Shown here: positions 1-11,475 of the stretch, one piece after another
Position numbering within the stretch: position 1 is the stretch's first letter
Layout of the letters: the number at the start of each line of letters is the position of its first letter
DNA from: an uncultured Porphyromonadaceae bacterium
GTDB taxonomy: Bacteria > Bacteroidota > Bacteroidia > Bacteroidales > Muribaculaceae
Assembly (NCBI GenBank): GCA_947174735.1
Contig: CAMWKC010000046.1
Location: 1 to 11,475 of the forward strand
DNA length: 11,475 nt
Direction of reading: 5' to 3'
The notes under the pieces: model-generated
What the model saw: only the letters and a program-made list of their open reading frames with translations
The model's database searches: none
What the model was told of the DNA's origin: nothing
Translations under genes and position numbers: made by a program

Positions 1-281
1 TACCTGAAGAGGTCAAAATCGAACGTCTTAACCGTATGATAGCACTCCAGAACGAGCTGTCTCTCGAATCCAATCTACGTGACGTGGGTAAAGAATTTGA
101 GGTGCTGGTAGAAGGTAAATCGAAGCGCAGTGACGAGGAAGTGTTCGGACGCACCTCGCAGAACAAAGTGGTGGTATTCGCACGCCGTAGTAAAGATGGC
201 AGCGAGCACCGTCCGGGTGATTTTGTGAAGGTAAGGGTGTTGTCTGCTACATCGGCTACTCTTCGTGGTGAAGAAATATAA
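1..281 (+). CDS. miaB: MiaB, tRNA 2-methylthiotransferase, C-terminal end (partial)
   Basis: Only the last ~93 residues are present; the frame is open to the left edge, so the gene starts outside the window. MiaB is a cytoplasmic radical-SAM iron-sulfur enzyme that adds a methylthio group to N6-isopentenyl-adenosine 37 of tRNAs reading UNN codons. The visible part has the linker seen after the radical-SAM domain (PEEVKIERLNRMIALQNELS) and then the RNA-binding TRAM domain, with VLVEGKSKRSDEEVFGRT and a closing GDFVKVRV strand. The radical-SAM and iron-sulfur residues are not in view. The spacing to the following amylase gene is short (25 bp), so the two may share a transcript. MiaB is preferred over the related RimO/MtaB enzymes because of the KSKRS...GRT TRAM pattern. 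Confidence 0.93.
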   Translation, partial: PEEVKIERLNRMIALQNELSLESNLRDVGKEFEVLVEGKSKRSDEEVFGRTSQNKVVVFARRSKDGSEHRPGDFVKVRVLSATSATLRGEEI

Positions 282-306
282 TCCTAATTTTCAATATTTC
301 TCAGTT

Positions 307-1746
307 ATGTTCAAGCTAATCAAACGTAGTCTTGTAGCGCTTTTGGCGTTACTCGGTATCGGAGCTGTACGTGGCGAAGCACAGCAGGACCCGCGTCAGC
401 TTACTATCTATCAGGTGATGGTAGCATCGTTTCAACACGCGGATGACGGTGCGCCCGGTTATACAGCTATGTGGGGACCGGACGGACATCGCAAGGACGG
501 TAATATAAAGGGTGTCACTGCTGCTCTTGACCATATCAAGGCTTTAGGAGCCAATGCTATATGGCTGACACCTATCTTTGACAGCACTTCAGCCGGCGGG
601 GGCGAGAAGTTACAGGCCACCGGTTACTTTACCAATAATTTCTTTGCTGTTGACCCTAATTTCGGCACTGAGGACGACTTGCGTGAACTGGTTCGCGAGG
701 CTCACGCACGCGGTATGTATGTAATACTTGACGGAGTATTCGGTCATCACGGCGGTGTTACCGACCCATCGCCCTCCGGCTATACTCTTGACGTGGAATG
801 GGTAGATAGTGATCGCGGTCCCGAGGGGGGCCAGGGTAATATCCGTTATCCCGGTTCACTTGACTATATCAAGGAAGTGGCTACTTACTGGATAGATAAC
901 TTTGATATTGATGGCTGGCGTCTTGACCAGGCTTATCAGGCTACACAGAACGGTGTCAATTACTGGAATGAAATACGTGGCGCTGTCGAAGAACTTACAG
1001 CCAAACGGCGTGAAGCAGGTGAACGCTGGGGTACACTCGGTTATATGGTTGGCGAGGACTGGGGTACAGCCGACGTCATCAATCGTGGGGTTTACCGTGA
1101 CGGCGGTCTGCTGAGTGCTTTTGATTTCGATGGTAAGGAACTTATAAGCGGCCCGATGCAGGACCCTTCACAACCGGGGCTTGCCAACGGCTGGGACGAT
1201 GTTGTGACTATCTATTCCGTTCCTACACTGCGCGGTTATCTCAACGATTCGGTCATGCCTAATCTCTATCTGAGCAATCATGACGGTTATCGTCTGGCCG
1301 ATCATTTTGCCGACGACGATGCCGACCGCTGGCGTCAGATGAAGCTGCGTCATGCCATACTTGCCGGCTACTCAGGGCCGATTACGTTGTATTACGGCGA
1401 TGAATACGGCGACCTCAGCCGCGATACCGAAGGCGGTCAGAAAGACAACATCGCCCGTACTACCGGTCATCTCGAACCGCGCACACCCGAAGAAGCCGAC
1501 CTCCGTGATTATGTGGCCTACGTTATGACGTTGCGTCAGAATAACCCCGCCCTGTGGCGCGGTACTTCCAACTTTGCCCGTATATCTTCTCCCGATGGCC
1601 CCGACATACTTCAGGTCACCAAGACCGACCCGGAGACCGGCAACTCTGTCCTCATTATTTTCTCTGACAGTGATACAGATGTGGAGACGCCTGTCGGTAC
1701 AGTTCATGTCGAGCGTCTTGTGCCGCGTTTCGTTCTGCTGAAATAA
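307..1746 (+). CDS. Secreted GH13 alpha-amylase family glycoside hydrolase
   Basis: A 479-residue enzyme predicted to cleave or transfer alpha-glucosidic bonds in starch or glycogen-like glucans. The ATG at 307 is chosen because it places a classic signal peptide at the N-terminus (MFKLIKRS, then a Leu/Ala core, cleavage near GEA|QQ). An upstream in-frame GTG at 265 would overlap miaB and bury that peptide. There is no lipobox Cys, so a periplasmic or secreted product is likely. The GH13 barrel motifs are in order: region I VILDGVFGHHG (Asp142), region II DGWRLDQ with nucleophile Asp207, region III VGEDW with acid/base Glu250, and region IV LSNHD with Asp326. A short beta domain ends the protein. 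No carbohydrate-binding module is seen, and no Sus-type genes are adjacent, so substrate specificity cannot be assigned. Confidence 0.92.
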   Translation: MFKLIKRSLVALLALLGIGAVRGEAQQDPRQLTIYQVMVASFQHADDGAPGYTAMWGPDGHRKDGNIKGVTAALDHIKALGANAIWLTPIFDSTSAGGGEKLQATGYFTNNFFAVDPNFGTEDDLRELVREAHARGMYVILDGVFGHHGGVTDPSPSGYTLDVEWVDSDRGPEGGQGNIRYPGSLDYIKEVATYWIDNFDIDGWRLDQAYQATQNGVNYWNEIRGAVEELTAKRREAGERWGTLGYMVGEDWGTADVINRGVYRDGGLLSAFDFDGKELISGPMQDPSQPGLANGWDDVVTIYSVPTLRGYLNDSVMPNLYLSNHDGYRLADHFADDDADRWRQMKLRHAILAGYSGPITLYYGDEYGDLSRDTEGGQKDNIARTTGHLEPRTPEEADLRDYVAYVMTLRQNNPALWRGTSNFARISSPDGPDILQVTKTDPETGNSVLIIFSDSDTDVETPVGTVHVERLVPRFVLLK

Positions 1747-1751
1747 GTTTG

Positions 1752-1933
1752 TCGGAGCTATCGGAGTAATCGGAGCTATCGGAGTAATCGGAGCTATCGG
1801 AATTATCGGATTTATCCGATTATTCTGATTACTCCGATAGCTCTGATTACTCCGATAGCTCCGATTACTCCGATCAAATCCGATTACTCCGATAGCTCCG
1901 ATTATTCCGATCAAATCCGATTACTCCGATTAG
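1752..1933. repeat. 9-bp tandem repeat with central inversion between convergent genes
   Basis: Seven head-to-tail units of the type tcggagcta/tcggagtaa (1752-1814) are followed by about thirteen units in the opposite orientation (tccgattac/tccgatagc, 1815-1933), two of them 10 bp long (tccgatcaaa). The orientation switches at atcggat-tt-atccgat (1805-1820). The two arms can pair over some 60 bp with register slips, so either strand would give a long imperfect hairpin. It starts 5 bp after the amylase stop and ends 3 bp before the tonB stop. A bidirectional terminator or 3'-end RNA stabiliser is the simplest reading; a replication-slippage locus with no function is the alternative. Confidence 0.9.
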
Positions 1934-1936
1934 TCA

Positions 1937-2686
1937 TCAACGTGGAGTGATGGTGAAGGTAATAGAGCCGTGAGTATCGCCGGCACCTTTCTTGGCGCTC
2001 CATGTAGCCTGACGTGCGGCCTGCTCGCAGGCACGTCGTATGGAGGCGTCAGCCGAGCCGGTGGCGGAGGCCGATATAACCTTACCCTCTTCGTTAACAA
2101 CGACTTCTACTTTAACAACGGTTTTGTGGCGCAGGCTGACGTTCGGCTTGGGACAGCCATTGAAAGTGCGGCCACGCACACTGCCCTGTATGCCGACACC
2201 GTCACCGCCGGCACCACTGTTGCTGTTCTTGCCGGTTTCGGTGCCATTACGTGGAACAAAGCCCTTGGCCACACTCGAAGTTACTTTTGCCTTTTCCTTA
2301 TCGGTGGCAGTAGGTGTAGTGGCTTTGACAGGACTTTCTTTCTTCTGTGTTATCGGTTTTTCGACCGGAGGTGCAGGTTTGGGATTCTCACCTTTGACTA
2401 TAAGTTCGGTATTGTCTTCCGGGGCCGGTTCCGGCTGTCCTTTAAATGAAGGTGCCGGAGCATCGTTGGTAACAGCCTTTTCCTCACCTAAGTCGAGAAG
2501 TTCAGGCTCTACAAACATTTCTTCCTCTTCTTCAGGTATCATCATTTCAGCCGGAGTGCTGTCAGCAGTCAGAGGAGGGTAGAAAGTAAGACGGCCGCCG
2601 ACTAGAAACAGAGCTATGAATACCATTACCAGAAGGGTCAGGCCCATAGCTATCAGCCGGTCTTTCTTTTCACGTTCGGTGCTCAT
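1937..2686 (-). CDS. tonB: TonB-like energy transducer
   Basis: A 249-residue inner-membrane anchored periplasmic protein that should pass proton-motive energy from ExbB/ExbD to outer-membrane TonB-dependent receptors. It has a short cytoplasmic N-terminus rich in charged residues, one membrane span at about residues 13-34, then an acidic and proline-rich spacer (an EEEEE stretch, many Pro, Lys and Glu) and a C-terminal TonB/TolA-like alpha-beta domain from about 160. That domain contains VVKVEVVVNEEGKVISA and the helix ACEQAARQATW, and ends in a final strand (GSITFTI). The ATG overlaps the exbD stop in an ATGA arrangement, so the two are translationally coupled. A TolA-like role in a Tol system is possible, but no Pal or TolB is present nearby. 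Confidence 0.88.
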   Translation of the reverse strand: MSTEREKKDRLIAMGLTLLVMVFIALFLVGGRLTFYPPLTADSTPAEMMIPEEEEEMFVEPELLDLGEEKAVTNDAPAPSFKGQPEPAPEDNTELIVKGENPKPAPPVEKPITQKKESPVKATTPTATDKEKAKVTSSVAKGFVPRNGTETGKNSNSGAGGDGVGIQGSVRGRTFNGCPKPNVSLRHKTVVKVEVVVNEEGKVISASATGSADASIRRACEQAARQATWSAKKGAGDTHGSITFTITPR

Positions 2687-3147
2687 TGCTGCTGGGGAGC
2701 GGATTGTGGAACGGACTGGGCTGCGCGTGTGGCCAATACTATATGCAGATGCCGGCGTGCTGCCATATCAAGGACTTCGATGACACGGGCGTATGCTACT
2801 GTGCTGTCGGCATACAGAGCTACTGCACGTGTGGAATCCATCTGCTGTATGAGCGAAAGTTTGTTCATAAGCTCTTCACGCTGCAACTGCTGAGGCAGAG
2901 TGTTCTCAACCGATACCGAGTCATTGCGGTCCACTACCAAATGATAGTTGGAGTCGGCATCTATATAGACTTCGGTGACCGGTTTAAGTGATGCCTGCTC
3001 ACTGCTCTGTGGCAGATTGACATCTATGGCGGCCGGAAAAATGATAGTCGAGGTCACCATAAAGAATATCAGAAGCAGGAAGATTATATCAGTCATCGAC
3101 GACATTGAGAATGTGTCTAGGGGAGCGAAAGTTTTCTTCAGTGCCAT
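2683..3147 (-). CDS. exbD: ExbD/TolR biopolymer transport protein
   Basis: A 154-residue partner of ExbB in the proton-driven motor that energises TonB. It has a short cytoplasmic N-terminus, then one membrane helix, MTDIIFLLLIFFMVTST, carrying the invariant proton-binding Asp (residue 20) seen in ExbD and TolR. A periplasmic domain follows, with the usual strand pattern (VYIDADSNYHLVVD ... AVALYADSTVAYARVIEVLD). The tail is Gln/Pro/Ser-rich. It lies 46 bp downstream of exbB and overlaps tonB by 4 bp. Many Bacteroidales loci of this type carry two exbD genes in a row; only one is seen here. Confidence 0.93.
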   Translation of the reverse strand: MALKKTFAPLDTFSMSSMTDIIFLLLIFFMVTSTIIFPAAIDVNLPQSSEQASLKPVTEVYIDADSNYHLVVDRNDSVSVENTLPQQLQREELMNKLSLIQQMDSTRAVALYADSTVAYARVIEVLDMAARRHLHIVLATRAAQSVPQSAPQQQ

Positions 3148-3193
3148 GCTTGGATAGTTTCAGAGAGTATTGCACGGGTCTGACCCGCGGATC

Positions 3194-3820
3194 TTACATG
3201 GAAGGCTCATTGAGAAGGTCCATGAACTCCATTGACTTCTGTTCAAACGAATTCATGATACGGTTGACCTTGGCTACAAGCACATTATAGGCGAACAGTG
3301 CTACGATACCCACTATAAGACCTGCCACAGTGGTGACAAGTGCCTGATATATGCCTGACGAAAGGACAGTGATATTGGCTGCCGAGCCGGCGCTTGCCAG
3401 AGAGAAGAAAGCCTCGATCATACCTACTACAGTACCGAGAAAGCCGAGCATTGGTGCGCCGGCGGCCGTGGTTGAGAGCCATGAAAAACCTTTGGTAAGG
3501 TTTGTGACTTCGATGTTGCCGGTGTTTTCGACAGCTACAAGCACATCGTTCATAGGTCGGCCGATACGGGTCAGACCTTTAAGAATCAATCGCGAGTAGG
3601 GAGTGGAGTGTTTCTTGCAGAGACTGACTGCGCTGTCAATGTCGCCTTCGTGCACATAATCGCGTATGCGACCCATGAAGGTGGGGTCTTCTCTCGCGGC
3701 ACGCCACAGCACAATGCAGCGCTCTATAAAGATATACAGGCTGGTGAGCAGCAGCAGGGCCAGCGGAATCATGATAAAGCCGCCGTCTTTGACCAGCGAC
3801 CATAAAGAAAGAGATGTCAT
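3194..3820 (-). CDS. exbB: ExbB/TolQ/MotA-family proton channel protein
   Basis: A 208-residue multi-span inner-membrane protein that forms the proton channel around ExbD and drives TonB. The start at 3820 (MTSLSLWSLVKDGG) is chosen because it gives the usual short N-terminus before the first span (about residues 15-37). The open frame continues upstream to 3943, but that extension is encoded by a tandem DNA repeat and is unlike the family. The signature segments of the last two helices are present: APMLGFLGTVVGMIEAF (about 122-138) and SGIYQALVTTVAGLIVGI (about 155-172). The cytoplasmic loop lies at about 40-110. The gap to exbD contains a small hairpin (cgggt-ctg-acccg, 3175-3187). Confidence 0.92.
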   Translation of the reverse strand: MTSLSLWSLVKDGGFIMIPLALLLLTSLYIFIERCIVLWRAAREDPTFMGRIRDYVHEGDIDSAVSLCKKHSTPYSRLILKGLTRIGRPMNDVLVAVENTGNIEVTNLTKGFSWLSTTAAGAPMLGFLGTVVGMIEAFFSLASAGSAANITVLSSGIYQALVTTVAGLIVGIVALFAYNVLVAKVNRIMNSFEQKSMEFMDLLNEPSM

Positions 3821-3861
3821 ATTGAGAAACTCACGAAAAGGGGTGGATATTGGCTGAATTA

Positions 3862-3876
3862 GGGAGCAGAGCTCCC
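3862..3876. other. Small GC hairpin in the exbB leader
   Basis: gggagc-aga-gctccc is a perfect 6-bp inverted repeat with a 3-nt loop, about 40 bp upstream of the exbB start on the - strand. No T run follows it on either strand, so it is not a standard terminator. It could separate pdxJ from exbB expression or act as an mRNA end-protecting stem. Confidence 0.4.
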
Positions 3877-3881
3877 GTCGG

Positions 3882-3972
3882 TAACCAGCTTCGCGCGGGT
3901 ACAAGCTGGCAATAATCAGCTTCGCGCGGGTGTAGGCGGGCATAACCGGCTTCGCGCGGGTATAGGCGGGGG
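3882..3972. repeat. Three tandem ~30-bp repeats between pdxJ and exbB
   Basis: Units of 31, 30 and 30 bp start at 3882, 3913 and 3943. Each contains the invariant core gcttcgcgcgggt (3888-3900, 3919-3931, 3949-3961), preceded by taa(c/t)c(a/g). The outer parts of the unit vary (tacaagctggcaa, tgtaggcgggca, tataggcggggg). The block lies just beyond the pdxJ stop codon and fills over half of the 159-bp gap to exbB. The unequal unit length breaks any reading frame through the block, which argues against it being coding. Confidence 0.85.
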
Positions 3973-3979
3973 CTAAGCT

Positions 3980-4702
3980 TTACTCTGCGTCTTTGAGGCA
4001 GTCGAGGTAGCGGTGTATGGTTTCTTCAATGCCTAAGTAAAGCGCATCGCAGACGAGGGCGTGGCCGATGCTCACCTCGTCGAGATGAGGAAGGGAGCGA
4101 TGGAAATAGGCGAGATTCTCAAGGCTGAGGTCGTGACCGGCATTGAGTCCGAGGCCGATTTCAAGTGCTGTGCGCGAAGCTTCGACGAACGGTTGTACCG
4201 CCTTTTCACGGTCGGCGGCATAATTGTCGGCGTATGGCTTGGTGTAAAGCTCCACACGGTCGGCACCGACTTCTTTGGCTGCGCGCACCTGTTCGGGCTC
4301 GGCTGCCACAAATATCGAGCTTCTGATACCGGCTTCACGGAGACGATGGGTTATACCTCGCAGGAAGTCAGCGTTAGCTATTACGTCCCAGCCTGCCGAT
4401 GAGGTCAGGGCGCCGGGAGCATCAGGCACGAGAGTGACCTGGGCCGGCTTTACAGAAGTGACCAACTGCATGAAGTCCTCGGTAGGATAACCCTCGATAT
4501 TAAACTCCGTATGCAGCACCGGGCTGAGGTCCGTGACATCACGGCGGCGTATGTGCCGCTCGTCAGGACGCGGATGCACTGTGATTCCTTGAGCGCCGAA
4601 ACGCTCGCAGTCGAGGGCAAAGGCCACTACATCGGGATTATTTTCACCCCGGGCATTACGCAGAGTGGCTATCTTGTTGATGTTAACGCTTAAACGTGTC
4701 AT
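3980..4702 (-). CDS. pdxJ: Pyridoxine 5'-phosphate synthase PdxJ
   Basis: A 240-residue cytoplasmic TIM-barrel enzyme that condenses 3-amino-2-oxopropyl phosphate with 1-deoxy-D-xylulose 5-phosphate to make pyridoxine 5'-phosphate, the ring-closing step of the DXP-dependent vitamin B6 pathway. The length is the family norm. Motifs appear in order: [14 protein letters not shown] at the N-terminus, [13 protein letters not shown] at about 39-51 (His and Arg used in catalysis and phosphate binding), [16 protein letters not shown], a phosphate-binding GLNAGHDLS near 194, and EVSIGHALV near 215. It is divergent from the CBS-protein/nadK pair and is the first gene before exbB on its strand, a neighbourhood familiar in Bacteroidales. 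No strong promoter could be picked upstream on its strand. Confidence 0.97.
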
Positions 4703-4781
4703 AATTTGTATAATGGCCTCCTGTGGCCTCTCCGGATTACGATAAAAACATCATGATAGTGTTTTTTCGGCACAAAATTTG

Positions 4782-4789
4782 TAACTTTG
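4782..4789 (+). promoter_or_regulatory. Bacteroidetes -7 promoter element TAACTTTG
   Basis: The box fits the TAnnTTTG consensus of the Bacteroidetes housekeeping sigma factor exactly. The expected -33 TTTG is weak; only a T-rich stretch (4762-4767) is near the right distance. A start of transcription around 4793-4797 would fall right at the base of the long stem described for 4795-4908. It points toward the CBS-protein/nadK pair. Confidence 0.55.
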
Positions 4790-4794
4790 AACTC

Positions 4795-4908
4795 GCAAGG
4801 CTCTGCGGCCGTTCACATAACAGCGAGTTACCTCGTTTCCGTGTATATAGCGCAGGGCTTCGCAATCGTCAGTCCGGACAGTCTGGGGACGGCAGATGAT
4901 AATTTTTT
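4795..4908 (+). ncRNA. Candidate structured small RNA or leader
   Basis: The stretch follows a perfect -7 box and ends in six T residues (4903-4908). A 10-bp stem pairs 4798-4807 (aggctctgcg) with 4851-4860 (cgcagggctt), with two G-U pairs, and is extended by G4795-C4863 and C4796-G4862 after one mismatch. Inside it is a small hairpin, cgag-ttac-ctcg (4824-4835). A second hairpin follows at 4867-4891: cgtc/gacg outside, ccgga/tctgg inside, with loop cag. The T run starts 11 bp after that hairpin, so it is not a textbook terminator. No family is recognised: the signal-recognition-particle loop and tmRNA ends were looked for and not found. A 6S-type RNA or an mRNA leader of the downstream gene remain possible. 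Confidence 0.35.
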
Positions 4909-5046
4909 GAAATCAAGCGCAAAAATAGATAAAATAATTGAAGGTCACAAAGAGCGGCTGCAAAGAATTATCACTCCGTTTCCCTCCGTTAGTTTGAACC
5001 GGACTGCGAACAGTATAAAAATTAATTTATTGAAAGAAATTTGTCT
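4909..5046 (+). promoter_or_regulatory. AT-rich upstream region of the CBS-protein/nadK pair
   Basis: This stretch carries no credible gene. A possible second promoter is TTTG at 4993-4996 followed after 17 bp by tataaaaatt (5014-5023); the -7 part does not fit TAnnTTTG well, so support is weak. No Shine-Dalgarno sequence precedes the ATG at 5047, as is usual in this phylum. Confidence 0.3.
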
Positions 5047-5550
5047 ATGACTGCAAGAGATGTGATATCGCCTGTGCGTCAGGCGCCGCAGGCCGGTATG
5101 CTGCCTTCTGTTGAGGCGGATATGCCGTTGGTCGATGTGTTGCATCGCTTGCTCGATGCACCCGGTCGCGAATTGGCTGTCACCAGCCGGGGTGAGGTGA
5201 TGGGGGTGGCTGACCAGACTACTGTGCTCGAAGGTTTGGGGCGTATGTTGGCACCACGTGATGACAGTAGTGTGCTGACTGTCGAGTGTCCGGCTTCCGA
5301 TTACAGTGCTTCGCGTCTGGCCCATGCTGTTGAGGATGCCGATGCGCATTTAGTGGATATGTGGAGTGTGCCCGCTCCTGACGGACGTGTGGCCGTGACA
5401 TTGCGTGTGTCACATCTTGACCCGGGTTCTGTGGCACACAATCTTGAGCGTTACGGTTATGAGGTCACTTCGGCCTACGGTGATACCGAACTCGATGCCG
5501 AGGTAGCGGCCGAACGCCTCCTGGCTTTACAGATGATGCTGAATATCTGA
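5047..5550 (+). CDS. Short CBS-domain protein with ACT-like C-terminus
   Basis: A 167-residue cytoplasmic protein. The ATG at 5047 is preferred to a TTG two codons upstream. The N-terminus (TARDVISPVRQAPQAG, then SVEADMPLVDVLHRLLDAPG and ELAVTSRGEVMGVADQTTVLEGL) follows the CBS pattern but supplies barely one CBS repeat pair. Residues from about 78 to the end (ECPASDYSASRLAHAVEDAD ... VAVTLRVSHLDPGSVAHNLE) match the ACT-like tail of the CBS proteins that sit beside nadK in other Bacteroidales, which as I recall are about 50 residues longer. CBS modules bind adenine nucleotides, so a sensor role next to an NAD kinase is attractive but is inference. It may be a shortened lineage version with one CBS repeat lost. 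Confidence 0.75.
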   Translation: MTARDVISPVRQAPQAGMLPSVEADMPLVDVLHRLLDAPGRELAVTSRGEVMGVADQTTVLEGLGRMLAPRDDSSVLTVECPASDYSASRLAHAVEDADAHLVDMWSVPAPDGRVAVTLRVSHLDPGSVAHNLERYGYEVTSAYGDTELDAEVAAERLLALQMMLNI

Positions 5551-5600
5551 GCTTTTACCATCAAAAGTTGCTGCCTGTGGAAACCACTTGCCTGAATCCT

Positions 5601-6467
5601 GTGTCTTCCGTACTGGTCTTCGGTAACAGCCGACAGGAAGGACATTTCGATGATATAGCTGATTTGTTCCGGATTCTCTTAGCCGACGGTTTTTCGGTTA
5701 TGGCCGAACGCCGTTTTGCCGGTTATCTCCGCTCTAACGGTGTGTTTTTACCTGACAGGGTACGAGAGGTTCCGGAAGTTGTTGCCGGTACCGAAGCTGT
5801 TATCTCTTTAGGCGGTGACGGTACTTTTCTGCGTGTCGCCCGTATGGTAGGCGACCGTGGCATTCCGATATTGGGCATAAATACCGGGCATTTAGGTTTT
5901 CTTGCTTCTTACACCCTTAACGAACGCTGTGAATTGTCACATTCGCTGCGTACAGGCAATGCCTGTGTCGAGCCGCGCACAGTGCTGCGTATGGAATCGG
6001 CCGCTTTGCCAGATGCCGAATGGCCTTTCGCCCTTAATGAAGTGGCTGTGCTCAAAGACGCTACGGCTTCTATGATAACCGTACATGCCGAGGTTGACGG
6101 TCATTTTCTTGCCGACTATCTTGCCGATGGGCTTGTAGTCTCCACTGCTACCGGTTCGACTGCCTACAATCTGTCGGCCGGCGGTCCTCTCTTGGCACCT
6201 ACTCTTACCAATATGGTGCTTTCGCCGTTAGCACCTCATTCGCTGACGCTGCGTCCGCTTGTACTTTCCGGCTCCTCACGGCTGAGACTGTGGGCTGACT
6301 CGCGTTCTTCCTATTGCCGTGTGGCTATTGACGGACACTCATTTCAGGTTAAATCGGGTACCTCCCTTACTGTGGAGCGTGCCCCTTTCTGCATATATGT
6401 CATTCGTCGCACCGGTGATGACTTCGCCTCGATACTGCGTAATAAACTTCTTTGGGGCGTGCGATAA
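5601..6467 (+). CDS. nadK: NAD kinase
   Basis: Phosphorylates NAD to NADP in the cytoplasm with ATP, the only route to NADP. Motifs in order, numbered from 5601: GGDGT at 71-75 (catalytic Asp), NTGHLGFL from 94, LNEVAVLKD from 145, and the NAD-binding DGLVVSTATGSTAYNLSAGG from 176. The last part has RPLVLSG and a C-terminal beta domain. No ATG is available: the frame offers TTG 5568, GTG 5577 and GTG 5601. GTG 5601 is preferred because it begins the protein directly at the first beta strand (SSVLVFGNSRQ), as in relatives, giving 288 residues; the longer versions add a tail of up to 11 residues without homology to the family. The gap to the CBS gene is at most 50 bp, so the two are probably one operon. 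Confidence 0.95.
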   Translation: MSSVLVFGNSRQEGHFDDIADLFRILLADGFSVMAERRFAGYLRSNGVFLPDRVREVPEVVAGTEAVISLGGDGTFLRVARMVGDRGIPILGINTGHLGFLASYTLNERCELSHSLRTGNACVEPRTVLRMESAALPDAEWPFALNEVAVLKDATASMITVHAEVDGHFLADYLADGLVVSTATGSTAYNLSAGGPLLAPTLTNMVLSPLAPHSLTLRPLVLSGSSRLRLWADSRSSYCRVAIDGHSFQVKSGTSLTVERAPFCIYVIRRTGDDFASILRNKLLWGVR

Positions 6468-6502
6468 TTAAATACTTATGCTTGGATAGGATACAATAGC
6501 TT

Positions 6503-8161
6503 ATGAAGGGTTTACGGTTTAATATATATGTAAGACTGCTATGGTTGCTTGCAGCGTTTGTATGTGGCTGTGACCAACACCGTGCAATAAGAGAAAAACT
6601 TGAACAAGCCGAAAGCCTGATGGATAGCCGGCCGGATTCTGCTCTTGCTGTGTTGGACTCTCTGACTTTGTCTTATCCTACTCTGGACAGCGATAGAGAC
6701 AGAGCCTTATACGGTATGCTTTACACACAGGCTCTTGATAAAAATCATCTTGACCCGAAAAATGATTCCCTTATCTCTTTTGCTGTGGATTACTACGACC
6801 GTAAGAAAGATATTCCGCGACAGATAATTTCAACCTACTATCGCGGACGGGTACTTTATCACAGAGAACAGTTTCCACAGGCTCTCGTGAGCTTCTACAA
6901 AGCTAAAGAGCTTGCCGAGAATGACAGCTCTTTTTTCTGGGCCGGTATGGCCTATCGCGGAATAGCAGATATTCATTATAATACTTATAATCCTACCGAA
7001 CAATTAATATATGCTCATAAAGAATATGAATATCTTAAGAAGAGCGGTAAGCAGCCTTATCTGAATTATGCTCTGCATGATTTAGGCAGAGCCTTAAGTA
7101 TTAATGGCAAAACTGACGAAGTTCTGACGGTCGCTTCACAACTGCTTGATTCGGCAAAAGTAGCCGATGATCCTTACCTGAATTATGGCTCCTTACATCT
7201 CAAGGCCGGCATTCTGCTGTATGATGACAGGTATGATGAGGCCTATCCCATACTCTCTGAGATATGTGAAAGCGGCTATGCCGATACGACTGATTCACTC
7301 GACTTGTGTCTTACTCTTGTTCATAAGGGAGCCGAGAATACTGCACTGAAACTAATAAATTATACATCGCCTTCGGATAGTCTTATGAAAAGTATGATCA
7401 GGTATGAAGCCTATAAGAAAATGGGTCTTTATCCCTTAGCTCTTACAGAACTCGAGCAAAGTAACTATGTGACCAACGATATACTTAGATCTGCTATGAA
7501 GCAGGAGCTGACAACGGCGCTTGCTGAATATTTTGAATTTGATAAAAAACTTAATAATGCGAAGTTAAAAGCTTCACGTATAAAAATCTGGTTGATTGTC
7601 ACTGTTTCGTTATTGATTTTAAGTATATGGTTTTATATTACGAATTCTATTCGCCGCCGTCAGAAACAGGAGATAGCTACTAAAGTTCTGTTTGCCGAAC
7701 AGCTTCAGGAAGCACTTGAACAAAGCAGAAACGAAAATTCAGCTTCCTTCCAGATTATAAAGACACTGTTAGCTTCAAAATACGAACTTTTTGAAGAACT
7801 CAGCGAAATACTTATACGCTATAATGATACTAAAATTGCAAGACGTAAAATTGCCGATAGGGTAACAGAACTCATAGACTCACTTTCCATAAAAGGTGAT
7901 AAAATAAAAGAACTGGAGAAACAGGTTAACGAACTTTATAATAATCTTTATTCCGATTTCAAAAATGATTTGCCAGGACTAAAAGAAGCCGATTATTTAC
8001 TCTATCTTTTCTCAGTTCTCAGTCTTTCCAGTACCTCAATTTCTCTACTTCTTAAAGAAGACAAAGTCGACGCAGTCTACAACAGAAAGAGACGTCTAAA
8101 GGATAAAATCAAACAGCTCGAAGCACCTAAACGCGATCGATATATGAGTTATTTAAGTTAA
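6503..8161 (+). CDS. TPR lipoprotein with membrane span and HTH-like cytoplasmic tail
   Basis: A 552-residue protein of a type common in Bacteroidetes, probably a membrane-bound sensor/regulator. The N-terminus has a signal peptide with lipobox V-C-G-C, lipidated Cys23 and Asp at +2. Residues about 25-345 form helical TPR-like repeats, recognisable in DSALAVLDSL, YYRGRVLYHREQFPQALVSF and LKAGILLYDDRYDEAYPIL. A membrane span follows at about 361-380 (IKIWLIVTVSLLILSIWFYI), then a basic RRRQKQE stretch, a coiled coil to about 485, and a C-terminal helical unit at 490-535 (EADYLLYLFSVLSLSSTSIS, then KVDAVYNRKRRLKDKI). That unit resembles the LuxR-like HTH tails of Bacteroidetes TPR regulators. 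It lies 35 bp after nadK, but its lower GC groups it with the protease locus downstream. Whether it controls that locus is inference. Confidence 0.75.
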   Translation: MKGLRFNIYVRLLWLLAAFVCGCDQHRAIREKLEQAESLMDSRPDSALAVLDSLTLSYPTLDSDRDRALYGMLYTQALDKNHLDPKNDSLISFAVDYYDRKKDIPRQIISTYYRGRVLYHREQFPQALVSFYKAKELAENDSSFFWAGMAYRGIADIHYNTYNPTEQLIYAHKEYEYLKKSGKQPYLNYALHDLGRALSINGKTDEVLTVASQLLDSAKVADDPYLNYGSLHLKAGILLYDDRYDEAYPILSEICESGYADTTDSLDLCLTLVHKGAENTALKLINYTSPSDSLMKSMIRYEAYKKMGLYPLALTELEQSNYVTNDILRSAMKQELTTALAEYFEFDKKLNNAKLKASRIKIWLIVTVSLLILSIWFYITNSIRRRQKQEIATKVLFAEQLQEALEQSRNENSASFQIIKTLLASKYELFEELSEILIRYNDTKIARRKIADRVTELIDSLSIKGDKIKELEKQVNELYNNLYSDFKNDLPGLKEADYLLYLFSVLSLSSTSISLLLKEDKVDAVYNRKRRLKDKIKQLEAPKRDRYMSYLS

Positions 8162-8238
8162 ATGTTTGATAATTAGGTTTTTATCATTATTTGTTTTTAA
8201 TATTTGGTATATATCACATAATCAATAACTTACAAATA

Positions 8239-8261: not shown

Positions 8262-8352
8262 CTTATATAAACGTTTGATTGATAATAAAATATAATTCCA
8301 AAAAAACAAACTTTATCACCTGTAAAATTAGGTCTAAGCCATTTCTGCATTG

Positions 8353-8360
8353 TAACTTTG
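8353..8360 (+). promoter_or_regulatory. -7 promoter element TAACTTTG before the DUF3244-like gene
   Basis: The box is identical to the one at 4782 and fits TAnnTTTG. It is 23 bp upstream of the ATG at 8384, which would give a leader of about 15-20 nt. No good TTTG is seen at the -33 distance. It is the likely start of transcription for the small exported protein, the C10 lipoprotein and the following lipoprotein gene. Confidence 0.5.
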
Positions 8361-8383
8361 TGGCCAAATCAATACTTTCAACT

Positions 8384-8761
8384 ATGTCGAAATTTAAGTT
8401 ATATCTTACAATACTGTTATGCACTCTCTCTGGATTGAGCGTATTAGCAGATTCCGAAGGAGATAAAAAAGATTATAGTAAGTTAACAATTCCGCAAAAA
8501 CGGAATAATAATTTACCTACTCGTCCTAATGCTCCTTCGCATATATTTATTGAATGTGAATATGGTGATGGATTTATGAAGTTCCTCTTCCCTGATGGAA
8601 TTTATTCCTTATCTGTACGTATCTATAATGAGCTTGATAACTGGTGGGGCATAGCAACAACAGAAGAATCATATATAGAAATTCCATCTTTTAACGGTGA
8701 GTATATTATTGAGTGTACCTCTGATGATGGAAGAATATTCTCCGGTGAAATATTTTTCTAA
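8384..8761 (+). CDS. Small exported DUF3244-like protein
   Basis: A 125-residue secreted protein. The ATG at 8384 is chosen because it opens directly on a signal peptide (MSKFKLYLTILLCTLSGLSVLA, cleaved before DSEG) and lies just after a promoter box; the in-frame TTG at 8279 would bury the signal. Mature residues about 50-125 form a small beta-rich unit (HIFIECEYGDGFMKFLF, ... SYIEIPSFNGEYIIECTSDD, closing GEIFF). The strand layout and the final G-Y-I-I...G...GE pattern resemble DUF3244 proteins, which are common near Bacteroidales C10 peptidases. In streptococcal and B. fragilis C10 loci, small neighbours act as protease inhibitors; that this protein does so is inference. The DUF3244 match is by eye. 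Confidence 0.6.
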   Translation: MSKFKLYLTILLCTLSGLSVLADSEGDKKDYSKLTIPQKRNNNLPTRPNAPSHIFIECEYGDGFMKFLFPDGIYSLSVRIYNELDNWWGIATTEESYIEIPSFNGEYIIECTSDDGRIFSGEIFF

Positions 8762-8828
8762 TGGTGGAATAATAATAACTGTTAACTAAGATCTGATATT
8801 ATTTACCTAACATTAATTTTATATTTTT

Positions 8829-10010
8829 ATGTCTAATATCTGCAAGAAATATCTGCTGAACTTGTTGGTCCCGATAGGCATTTTGACTCTCGGCCTATCT
8901 GCCTGTCATGATGCCTATGATCAACCTGAGTCTGCTTCCTCAGCGGAACAGGCTCTGCTAAGTAAATTACAACATTACTATGATGACCTCCCCGGGCAGT
9001 CACGAAGTGGTAACAGTATTTCTATTAAAGAAATTGAACAGCGTCACTATGTTATAGTAGATGACACTGTGGTCGAGACTCCTCAAACAAGAACACTCGA
9101 CCCCAATAGCTTTGATATTACACGTGTGTCTCTGAATATCGATGGTAAAGAAGGCTTTGCTATTATTTCTGAAGATGAACGTCTTGACCACGTGTATTAC
9201 TTTACAGATAACGGATGTATTTCCGATACTGTCCGGATAGGAGGATTAAAATGGGTGATAGAGCAAATACCTTATTTTGCAGCTACAGAATTACTGTCAG
9301 AGAAACCTGTGACACGGGCTGATTTTGGTGAAATGATCGTTGCTCCTTTGGTACGTTTTAATTGGCATCAAGGCTATCCGTTTAATATTCTTGCTCCTTA
9401 TTGCACATGTAAATCCTGTGCTCACATCACACACAAGAATCATAACCCTATGGGTTGTGTAACTATAGCTGTAGGGCAAACTATAGCCAAAATATGTTTA
9501 TCCAAGGGCATTCCTTTTAAAGGTACATATTTTGGTAGTAGAGATCTTGATTTTTGTACCTTGCCAGCTGATTGGAGTAGTTTTTCCGAAATGACAAAAC
9601 AGCGAATTGCTCATTTCTGTCATGAGATTGCTGTATGCTGTCAGGTAAAATTTGGCTGTACTGGAAGTAGTACCTCTGTCCATGCTGCTTATAATTATCT
9701 GCAGGATTTAGGTTATGAATGTACTTTTGCAGAGAATACCACACTTGACATTACGAGACTCATTAATAATCTTAAAAAAGGCTTTCCCCAGATTATGGGT
9801 GGTCACGATCTTAAGACAGGTGATGGGTATGCGTGGATTATAGATGGGATTAAAGTAGTGAATAATTCTTATGCTTTTAATTGTAATTGGGGAGATAGTG
9901 GTGTTAGCAATGGTTGGTGTTATGGTAATCCTTATACAGAAGTTACGAAAAATGATACCTTTGAATATGCTAAAAATGTAGCTTATTTGTATATTAATAA
10001 TGTAAAATAA
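8829..10010 (+). CDS. C10-family (streptopain-like) lipoprotein, catalytic His replaced
   Basis: A 393-residue surface or periplasmic lipoprotein with lipobox L-S-A-C (Cys26). Residues about 40-165 match the streptopain propeptide/Spi inhibitor fold (ISLNID-like strand then GFAIISEDERLDHVYYFTDN). The papain-like peptidase part follows: WHQGYPFN at about 179, nucleophile Cys210 in NPMGCVTIAVGQ, GSSTSVHAAYNYLQDLGY near 280-297, and DGYAWIIDG at 332-340. In C10 enzymes the last motif reads GHAxxIDG; here the general-base His position is Tyr334 (codon tat at 9828), with no replacement His obvious. The conserved NWGWGG segment reads NWGDSG. The enzyme is therefore probably inactive or altered. A CxCxxC cluster (Cys192, 194, 197, then His199) just before the nucleophile is unusual for the family. 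The 14-bp gap to the next gene suggests one operon. Confidence 0.85.
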   Translation: MSNICKKYLLNLLVPIGILTLGLSACHDAYDQPESASSAEQALLSKLQHYYDDLPGQSRSGNSISIKEIEQRHYVIVDDTVVETPQTRTLDPNSFDITRVSLNIDGKEGFAIISEDERLDHVYYFTDNGCISDTVRIGGLKWVIEQIPYFAATELLSEKPVTRADFGEMIVAPLVRFNWHQGYPFNILAPYCTCKSCAHITHKNHNPMGCVTIAVGQTIAKICLSKGIPFKGTYFGSRDLDFCTLPADWSSFSEMTKQRIAHFCHEIAVCCQVKFGCTGSSTSVHAAYNYLQDLGYECTFAENTTLDITRLINNLKKGFPQIMGGHDLKTGDGYAWIIDGIKVVNNSYAFNCNWGDSGVSNGWCYGNPYTEVTKNDTFEYAKNVAYLYINNVK

Positions 10011-10024
10011 TTAAATCATAAATT

Positions 10025-10921
10025 ATGATTAAAAAAATATATTATCTCTTAAATATAATATGCTCTATATCTATATCGCTAGTAAGCGGTTGTGTGCTTA
10101 CTTCATGTGATGAAAAGTCACATTCCGACCTTTGGGGTGCTACTATAAGGTCAATATGCTTAGAGCCTTTGGCATTCGAAATTAATGAGGTATCAGAGGA
10201 TTACATTATTCCATCTAACGAAGAAATTTACCTGTTTAAAGGAAGTGGGATAGATGAGCATTATTGTCCTGATTGGCAGAATGTAGAATTAGAACTTAAG
10301 GCTTGTGAGAACTACACTGTTTATCCTTCTGGAAGTTTGGAATATCAACAGCAATGGGAAAATGCCGATCAAGTTATTAAAACCGAAGTATCGAATGTAT
10401 TAATAGCAAACGATTGGATTAGTTGGGAAGCTGTTAAAGATAGTCAATCATTTTCTCTGAAATTAATCGTGAAGGAAAACAATACTAATAAACAGCGGGC
10501 TGCTCGGTTAAGTTTTGTAGAATTCTTTCCACCGTCTCATGATTATTGTTTTGTAGATTTGGTAATTGTACAGAAAGCTGCCGTTGATCCTACTCCTTTC
10601 AAAGTAAAGTTACGTTATAAAGGTAAGCTGTACGAAACAGAGGCCTCACTTAATGAAAATGAAGAACTTATTTTTCAAAATGATGAAGTATCTGAACTGA
10701 TGGCCATGTTACGCGCTAAACCGGATGTGGAAACTGTACTGATGGATAGTGAAATAGTGGATTTTATTGACAAGGAAGATTTAGATAAGGAACCTCGTTT
10801 AGTAGCATTAGCTGCTCGAGATGGTATGCAGCGTGTGACTTGTCCTTCCCATCCCCGGAAATTGGAATGCAGGTTTCCGTTTTATGGAAACTGGTGCGGT
10901 AGGTTATTGTGCATTGTTTGA
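10025..10921 (+). CDS. BACON-like lipoprotein, N-terminal part, ended by frameshift
   Basis: A lipoprotein signal peptide opens the protein, with two possible lipidation sites, V-S-G-C (Cys23) and L-T-S-C (Cys28). Residues about 125-190 (NDWISWEAV ... SFSLKLIVKENNTNKQRAAR ... FVDLVIVQKA) have the strand pattern of BACON modules of Bacteroidetes surface proteins. A small beta-alpha unit follows (TPFKVKLRYKGKLYETEASL). After residue 276, at the C run 10853-10856, the frame departs from homology and ends in a Cys/Arg-rich nonsense tail (RKLECRF...LLCIV). Removing one C continues in frame into the crystallin-like segment at 10884-11288, giving a protein of about 420 residues. So this is most likely the front half of a disrupted gene, or a sequencing error in a C run. 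Confidence 0.7.
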   Translation: MIKKIYYLLNIICSISISLVSGCVLTSCDEKSHSDLWGATIRSICLEPLAFEINEVSEDYIIPSNEEIYLFKGSGIDEHYCPDWQNVELELKACENYTVYPSGSLEYQQQWENADQVIKTEVSNVLIANDWISWEAVKDSQSFSLKLIVKENNTNKQRAARLSFVEFFPPSHDYCFVDLVIVQKAAVDPTPFKVKLRYKGKLYETEASLNENEELIFQNDEVSELMAMLRAKPDVETVLMDSEIVDFIDKEDLDKEPRLVALAARDGMQRVTCPSHPRKLECRFPFYGNWCGRLLCIV

Positions 10922-11288
10922 CGATAAAAACTTCTCCGATACTTATTTCGTAAAAAACCTGACAAGCCGCTATTCGGTGTTTGATGTTCTCGACATGCAT
11001 AAAATCGGTCTTAATGATAAGGTGTCTTCTATAGCTATAGCATACGAAGCTACTGACAATGATGTATGTGCTGTATTGACTTTGTGGGAAGATGATCACT
11101 TTAATTATGATGATACATACCGGAGTAAACATCGTCTAAGTCTTATAGCAGCTCCTTATAATGCTCATGCATGGTGGTCTGACTTAAAGAGTGTACCTTG
11201 TCTTGGATCATCAAAATCATGGAACGACAGAGCATCATCATTCTCCTTCCATTTCGGAAGAGTAGGTACACAGCTTAAAGACTACTGA
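10884..11288 (+). CDS. Beta/gamma-crystallin-like C-terminal part of the split lipoprotein
   Basis: A 134-residue frame with no signal peptide of its own; its ATG lies inside the preceding frame, so it is best read as the back half of that protein. It has two beta/gamma-crystallin motifs: ALFDDKNFSDTYF ... IGLNDKVSSIAI and LTLWEDDHFNYDDTY ... KSWNDRASSFSF. Each ends with the N-D-x-x-S-S calcium-site signature (NDKVSS at 44-49, NDRASS at 114-119). Similar domains occur in secreted bacterial proteins, including I36-type peptidase inhibitors, which would fit next to a C10 peptidase; that function is inference. Just upstream, the reconstructed frame reads HPGNWNAGFRFMETG, which flows naturally into this part. 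The end at LKDY looks like a natural C-terminus. Confidence 0.7.
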   Translation: METGAVGYCALFDDKNFSDTYFVKNLTSRYSVFDVLDMHKIGLNDKVSSIAIAYEATDNDVCAVLTLWEDDHFNYDDTYRSKHRLSLIAAPYNAHAWWSDLKSVPCLGSSKSWNDRASSFSFHFGRVGTQLKDY

Positions 11289-11475
11289 AACCTTCGTTTC
11301 ATATAGACGGAGCGATACACGGTGCCCGGATTAAGGTCAGGGAAGAAGGAATTGAAGCTACCGGTGCTACAGCTATTATTCTTTTAGGTTCCGATCTTGG
11401 TTCTAACCCTAAGGCAACAGTAGTAAACATTGATCATCCGTTTGTCTATACTATAAGTGAGGTTTCGACCGGTAC
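11279..11475 (+). pseudogene. Serpin C-terminal fragment (body missing, runs off the window)
   Basis: Directly after the crystallin-like frame, another frame reads SFHIDGAIHGARIKVREEG, then IEATGATAIILL and VVNIDHPFVYTISEV. This is the serpin C-terminal pattern: the hinge E-E-G-x-E-A-x-x-A-T-A, a variable reactive loop (about LLGSDLGSNPKATVV), and the following DHPFxYxI strand. A taa stop at 11276 precedes it, no ATG lies nearby, and the ~300-residue serpin body is absent: the DNA upstream is fully occupied by the crystallin part. It is therefore a 3' remnant left by deletion or recombination, or a recombination/assembly junction. Serpins trap serine or cysteine proteases, which suits the neighbouring C10 gene. 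The frame is still open at the window end. Confidence 0.65.

Follow-up and report, generated by a model that had tools for sequence, protein, structure and literature searches.

A homologue of the C10 (streptopain-family) peptidases with a lipoprotein signal and a propeptide, BtpZ (BT2220), is known from Bacteroides thetaiotaomicron, and its authors judged it to be a non-functional protease (PMC3462683). The btpZ gene adjoins, and is co-transcribed with, a gene for a small staphostatin-like protein, and the role of BtpZ was called unclear (PMC3462683). Bacteroides C10 enzymes were reported to be difficult to obtain in soluble or active form from E. coli (PMC3462683). In B. fragilis, the Bfp and Bfi proteins form pairs of a C10 protease and a staphostatin-like inhibitor (PMC2873492). 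Elsewhere, the pseudo-orthocaspases have a Tyr in place of the catalytic His and their Cys is also replaced (PMC6426788), and the Cys is likewise replaced in the SMIPP-C inactive cysteine proteases, which are mite proteins (PMC5956821). A search of the open-access literature, subscription papers lying outside its scope, returned nothing joining the C10 family with pseudoproteases, nor Muribaculaceae with C10 peptidases. Here we describe a C10 homologue (P0001, the window protein) that has a Tyr where the catalytic His is expected. It is encoded on contig CAMWKC010000046.1 from an uncultured Porphyromonadaceae bacterium, and the window that was analysed is the whole of this contig (11,475 bases). 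The source genome is a bin of 2.49 Mb in 388 contigs, judged to be 72% complete.

By its sequence, the window protein is a member of peptidase family C10 by descent. The Pfam family PF01640 was matched over residues 179-363 with 67.3 bits versus a cut-off of 26, along profile positions 1-193 of 194, and therefore the match is not a chance one. Structure prediction gave a papain-like fold with SpeB and interpain A as the closest structures. The Spi inhibitor/propeptide family I69 was only hinted at in Pfam (13.2 bits, below the cut-off of 25). No family was found for the protein in NCBIfam with E up to 0.1, and phmmer with the window protein alone gave no match in the PDB. The N-terminus looks by eye like an export signal and contains LSAC, which we take to be a lipobox, and the protein is probably exported and lipid-anchored.

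The preliminary description of this DNA had proposed a pseudo-enzyme in which the nucleophile Cys210 is intact and the catalytic His is replaced by Tyr334, and both residues were confirmed (codons tgt and tat). When a 26-row family profile was compared with the SpeB chains in the PDB, the Cys of the GC(V) motif and the His of the GH motif fell on the corresponding SpeB motifs. The MAFFT and hidden Markov model (HMM) alignments agreed in placing Tyr334 in the His column, and no other His was aligned with it. Judged on sequence features, the protein has the GC-motif Cys and the Asn-Trp pair of an active C10 peptidase and lacks one defining feature, the GH-motif His.

A census of the dyad was made with C10 domains found at E up to 1e-5, together with ten proteins; the domains were taken from stop-to-stop frames no shorter than 150 amino acids. 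The census loci (L001, L002 and L005-L136) had been found by similarity to the window protein, to its alignment or to PF01640. This gave 174 rows, 136 of them distinct; some of them also went into building the HMM, and the sample is weighted towards the clade of the window protein. Both Cys and His are present in 129 of the 136 distinct rows, and four more are gapped either at the Cys (two) or at the His (two). The His is lost in only three, which are the window protein and its relatives P0002 and P0004. The combination of Cys with Tyr occurs only in the window protein (1/136). In the other two (2/136) Gly replaces Cys and the His is absent; they read RPTW where others have GHxW, and the aligners differ on which residue stands in the His column, yet the motif is without His. 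The window protein keeps 42 of 44 conserved columns, and besides Tyr334 the only change is one that is common to relatives. Because the loss of His is rare, two relatives have lost both residues and the other conserved columns are kept, a pseudo-peptidase is the best reading of the protein.

The pseudo-enzyme reading thus stands, although on other grounds than those first offered, which included a second motif change. The motif NWGWGG does read NWGDSG here, with the Asn-Trp pair kept. The fourth residue is Trp in 116 of the 136 rows (6 are gapped), but in just 16 of the 26 family rows; of the ten family rows without this Trp, seven have an intact dyad. Since several relatives with an intact dyad are also without it, the change from Trp to Asp is no evidence of inactivation. 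In SpeB, Trp357 and Trp359 have both been reported in substrate binding (PMC4309557), and so the change may alter substrate binding, but here it is no mark of a dead enzyme.

Going beyond what is read from sequence or model (the family, the fold, the loss of His with the rest retained, the doubly dead relatives and a recurring neighbourhood), we infer the export and anchoring, the inactivity, the partner and a decoy role as follows. The homologue, which would be exported and lipid-anchored, keeps its propeptide, its papain-like fold, Cys210 and the Cys/His patch of its subfamily. With Tyr for the catalytic His the thiol would most likely not be activated, and thus peptides would not be cleaved. 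The protein would then bind without cutting, and its partners would be those of a working C10 protease, namely a protease substrate, a propeptide or the DUF3244-like small protein whose gene lies just upstream. Its role would be that of a decoy or titrating partner within a protease-inhibitor module of the envelope. Such a role, as decoy, sponge or binding protein, is plausible and agrees with the DUF3244-like fold predicted for the product of the neighbouring gene. Binding without cutting is the mechanism with the best support, but as a whole this proposal of an anchored and most likely non-cleaving homologue that works by binding is one that we regard as evenly poised.

The closest relatives, P0002 to P0004, form a mosaic with the window protein. 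Over residues 2-135, P0001 and P0002 are 97.7% identical and P0003 and P0004 98.5%, with 78-81% between the pairs, and the tree of this region joins P0001 with P0002 (support 99/97) and P0003 with P0004 (87/73). Over residues 176-393, P0002 and P0004 are 88.3% identical and P0001 and P0002 50.7%. The tree of residues 271-393 joins P0002 with P0004 (100/100), P0001 with P0003 weakly (87/71), and all four at 86/79. In between, over residues 136-270, P0003 is near P0002 and P0004, mostly at 70-90% in 30-residue steps. P0003 has kept Cys and His, and in its Asn-Trp pair Lys replaces Asn (KWGKHG), which may be a further step in the alteration of the active site.

Several results weigh against the reading of a binding pseudo-peptidase. 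In the tree of residues 176-393, P0003 is placed with P0002 and P0004 (99/97) and P0001 is unplaced, so the link between the window protein and the doubly dead relatives rests on overall identity, on the N-terminus and on residues 271-393. In the genomes searched, no other copy was closer than 42%, and no further C10 lipoprotein of the subfamily was found in the binned genome at its 72% completeness. The counts of open reading frames (ORFs) upstream in relatives have no control, and by sequence the small ORF of the window matched just two of them. Finally, the frame-broken gene downstream and a serpin-like fragment after it fit a decaying locus.

From the conflicting trees and identities we conclude that there is more than one breakpoint, and that the catalytic domain of the window protein is moderately tied to the doubly dead ones. 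One reading supposes two species, in both of which a doubly dead copy exists beside another copy and propeptides were homogenised within the species; that the members of each pair share a species is itself inferred, and exchange between species is a rival to homogenisation within them. P0002 sits on a contig of 2973 bases that is named Muribaculaceae. In the binned genome (72% complete) the propeptide DNA gave one match only, and no second copy was found. Perhaps C10 copies are kept in pairs in Muribaculaceae-type gut bacteria, a dead one alongside one whose active site is complete or nearly so, with propeptides made identical by recombination within a species while the catalytic halves diverge. 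The dead copy would share export, anchoring and the propeptide or inhibitor contacts, and would titrate the inhibitor of the working copy as a built-in decoy setting protease activity; we consider this wider model doubtful.

The main rival to the binding reading is that function was lost recently and the locus is decaying, which would make this a pseudogene in the making with no new role. The gene that follows, for a lipoprotein, is a single ORF of about 400 amino acids in several relatives (e.g. L122 and L125) and is split here into two frames, with the break between about 10780 and 10875; because of this, the window protein may be at an early stage of loss. After it, at about 11306-11470 and at the contig end, is a fragment similar to the C-terminus of serpins (35% identity with the end of the L133 serpin, E 2.9e-4). 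The G+C content is 0.37 over 8279-11475 versus 0.49 over 1-8200, which is consistent with imported DNA that is turning over. However, the C10 ORF is full-length with its conserved columns nearly all kept, and the frame break, at most about 700 bases from where the contig ends, is possibly an assembly fault. We consider decay unlikely, although it is the strongest of the alternatives.

Less probable still is that the protein is active through a rearranged site, for example with His326 replacing the missing His. His326 is at the end of the strand that precedes the one carrying Tyr334, and Cys210, Asn353 and Trp354 are intact. But P0006, L124, L130 and L131 have a His in this column together with the canonical His, therefore His326 is a natural variant and not a replacement, and the motif of P0002 and P0004 is without His. 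A miscalled base or a faulty assembly at Tyr334, in what would be a normal C10 protease, would agree with the near absence of other departures from conserved columns, with the fragmented assembly and with a downstream frame break that could be a second error, but it is very improbable, since the identical protein occurs in the records of two contigs (the longest has 11952 bases and so exceeds the present one; one is probably the contig of the window, and both perhaps come from the same reads) and the close relatives have lost both residues, which makes residue loss plausible here. The features of the homologue are listed in the table together with the neighbouring genes.

Features of the C10 homologue and of its neighbourhood in the window (positions on the contig)
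Feature	Position	Strand	Basis or remark
TPR protein, candidate membrane regulator	6503..8161	+	homologues upstream in several relatives; regulator role by eye
Small protein, 125 aa, upstream of the C10 gene, candidate inhibitor	8384..8761	+	signal-like N-terminus by eye; all-beta model
C10 (streptopain-family) homologue, predicted lipoprotein	8829..10010	+	open ORF, 393 aa
Putative signal peptide ending in lipobox-like LSAC (Cys26)	8829..8906	+	Cys26 invariant in the 26-row alignment
N-terminal/propeptide tract, residues 2-135	8832..9233	+	97.7% identical to P0002
CxCxxC...H patch (C192, C194, C197, H205), subfamily trait	9402..9443	+	alignment
Cys210, nucleophile position, kept	9456..9458	+	codon 210 tgt
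His326, nearest other His, outside the catalytic column	9804..9806	+	alignment
Tyr334 in the catalytic His column	9828..9830	+	codon 334 tat
NWGDSG, residues 353-358; N353-W354 kept, fourth residue variable in the family	9885..9902	+	alignment
Downstream lipoprotein gene, N-terminal part	10025..10921	+	one ORF in relatives
Downstream lipoprotein gene, C-terminal part, crystallin-like by eye	10875..11288	+	other frame

A Cys-rich patch before the nucleophile had also been described as part of the pseudo-enzyme. The patch is present, but its tie to the loss of catalysis was rejected: the full set of C192, C194, C197 and H205 was found in 20 of the 26 family rows, and the dyad is intact in 17 of these, for which reason we consider it a trait of the subfamily. 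By the pattern used, it was in none of the other rows among the 136. The family rows without the full patch are L125 (without C197 and H205), L134 (without C194, C197 and H205), L133 (without C194), and L045, L135 and L136, each without three of the four residues. C271 and C277 are kept also in L125, L133 and L134. As a guess from the sequence, the Cys residues might form a metal-binding C3H site and a separate disulfide.

The small protein encoded upstream has a DUF3244-like predicted fold, with 3d33 as the best match of its model in both Foldseek and VIA-align. In Pfam, with E up to 1, no family was found for the small ORF at 8279-8758, the DUF3244 profile included. No staphostatin was among the 50 VIA-align matches listed, which bears neither way. 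Further upstream, the TPR protein has by eye a candidate transmembrane segment and a helix-turn-helix-like C-terminus, and is distantly like NCBIfam BT3442 (51.8 bits, with a cut-off of 940). Among the relatives, the C10 gene of L133 is directly preceded by a serpin gene (PF00079, 195.7 bits), and in L126 two near-identical short lipoprotein genes in tandem (6699-8042) separate the C10 gene from the longer lipoprotein gene.

The distribution of the subfamily is patchy. Within the genus, 12 of 111 genomes carried it at E up to 1e-30, the source genome being counted. A draw of 397 genomes from the family, which overlaps the first set, gave 14 genomes with it at E up to 1e-20, and these belong to 3 of the 30 genera. 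A search with the 26-row profile, which scored only the 7998 candidates sharing most words, added only P0011-P0015. The source genome encodes two other C10 proteins of a different build (L001 on contig C3 and L002 on contig C15, in frames of 931 and 571 amino acids), both with Cys and His in place. The low G+C of 8279-11475 fits lateral gain and thus suggests that this locus was acquired. A phage or plasmid cassette was not supported and no carrier was found. The viral contigs scanned held no relative of the homologue, six of 72,556 plasmid records matched and none of these covered 80% of the query at one place (best identity 29.9%), and the one match among 50,697 phage records had 23.9% identity over 66% of the query.

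The four proteins P0001-P0004 form a graded series in which the dyad is kept, the His is lost or both residues are lost, within a recurring neighbourhood. This series, together with the near-identical propeptides within pairs and the neighbourhood, makes the decoy idea testable with purified proteins. It also means that a streptopain homologue recognised only by its domain may lack catalysis, although the dyad is kept in 129 of the 136 rows of the census.

A protein of this kind is already known in BtpZ; what is new is that the His is lost while the backbone is otherwise conserved, that there are doubly dead relatives and that propeptides are near-identical. Compared by description only, the window protein and BtpZ are both full-length C10 homologues with a dyad loss, an export-type N-terminus (here by eye) and an adjoining gene for a small protein, but BtpZ has lost the Cys whereas the window protein keeps the Cys and has lost the His. 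The arrangement is also like that of Bfp and Bfi, with a C10 gene beside a gene for a small protein that appears by eye to be exported; unlike Bfi, however, the small protein of the window has no Pfam match and is linked to DUF3244 only at the level of the predicted fold; it is a candidate inhibitor. The pseudo-orthocaspases and the SMIPP-C proteins have likewise replaced catalytic residues and kept their folds, but the former are another family, the latter are mite proteins, and both have lost the Cys that is kept here. From interpain A of Prevotella intermedia and streptopain/SpeB (MEROPS C10), the window protein differs by the Tyr in the His column, a lineage-specific Cys patch and a lipoprotein-like N-terminus.
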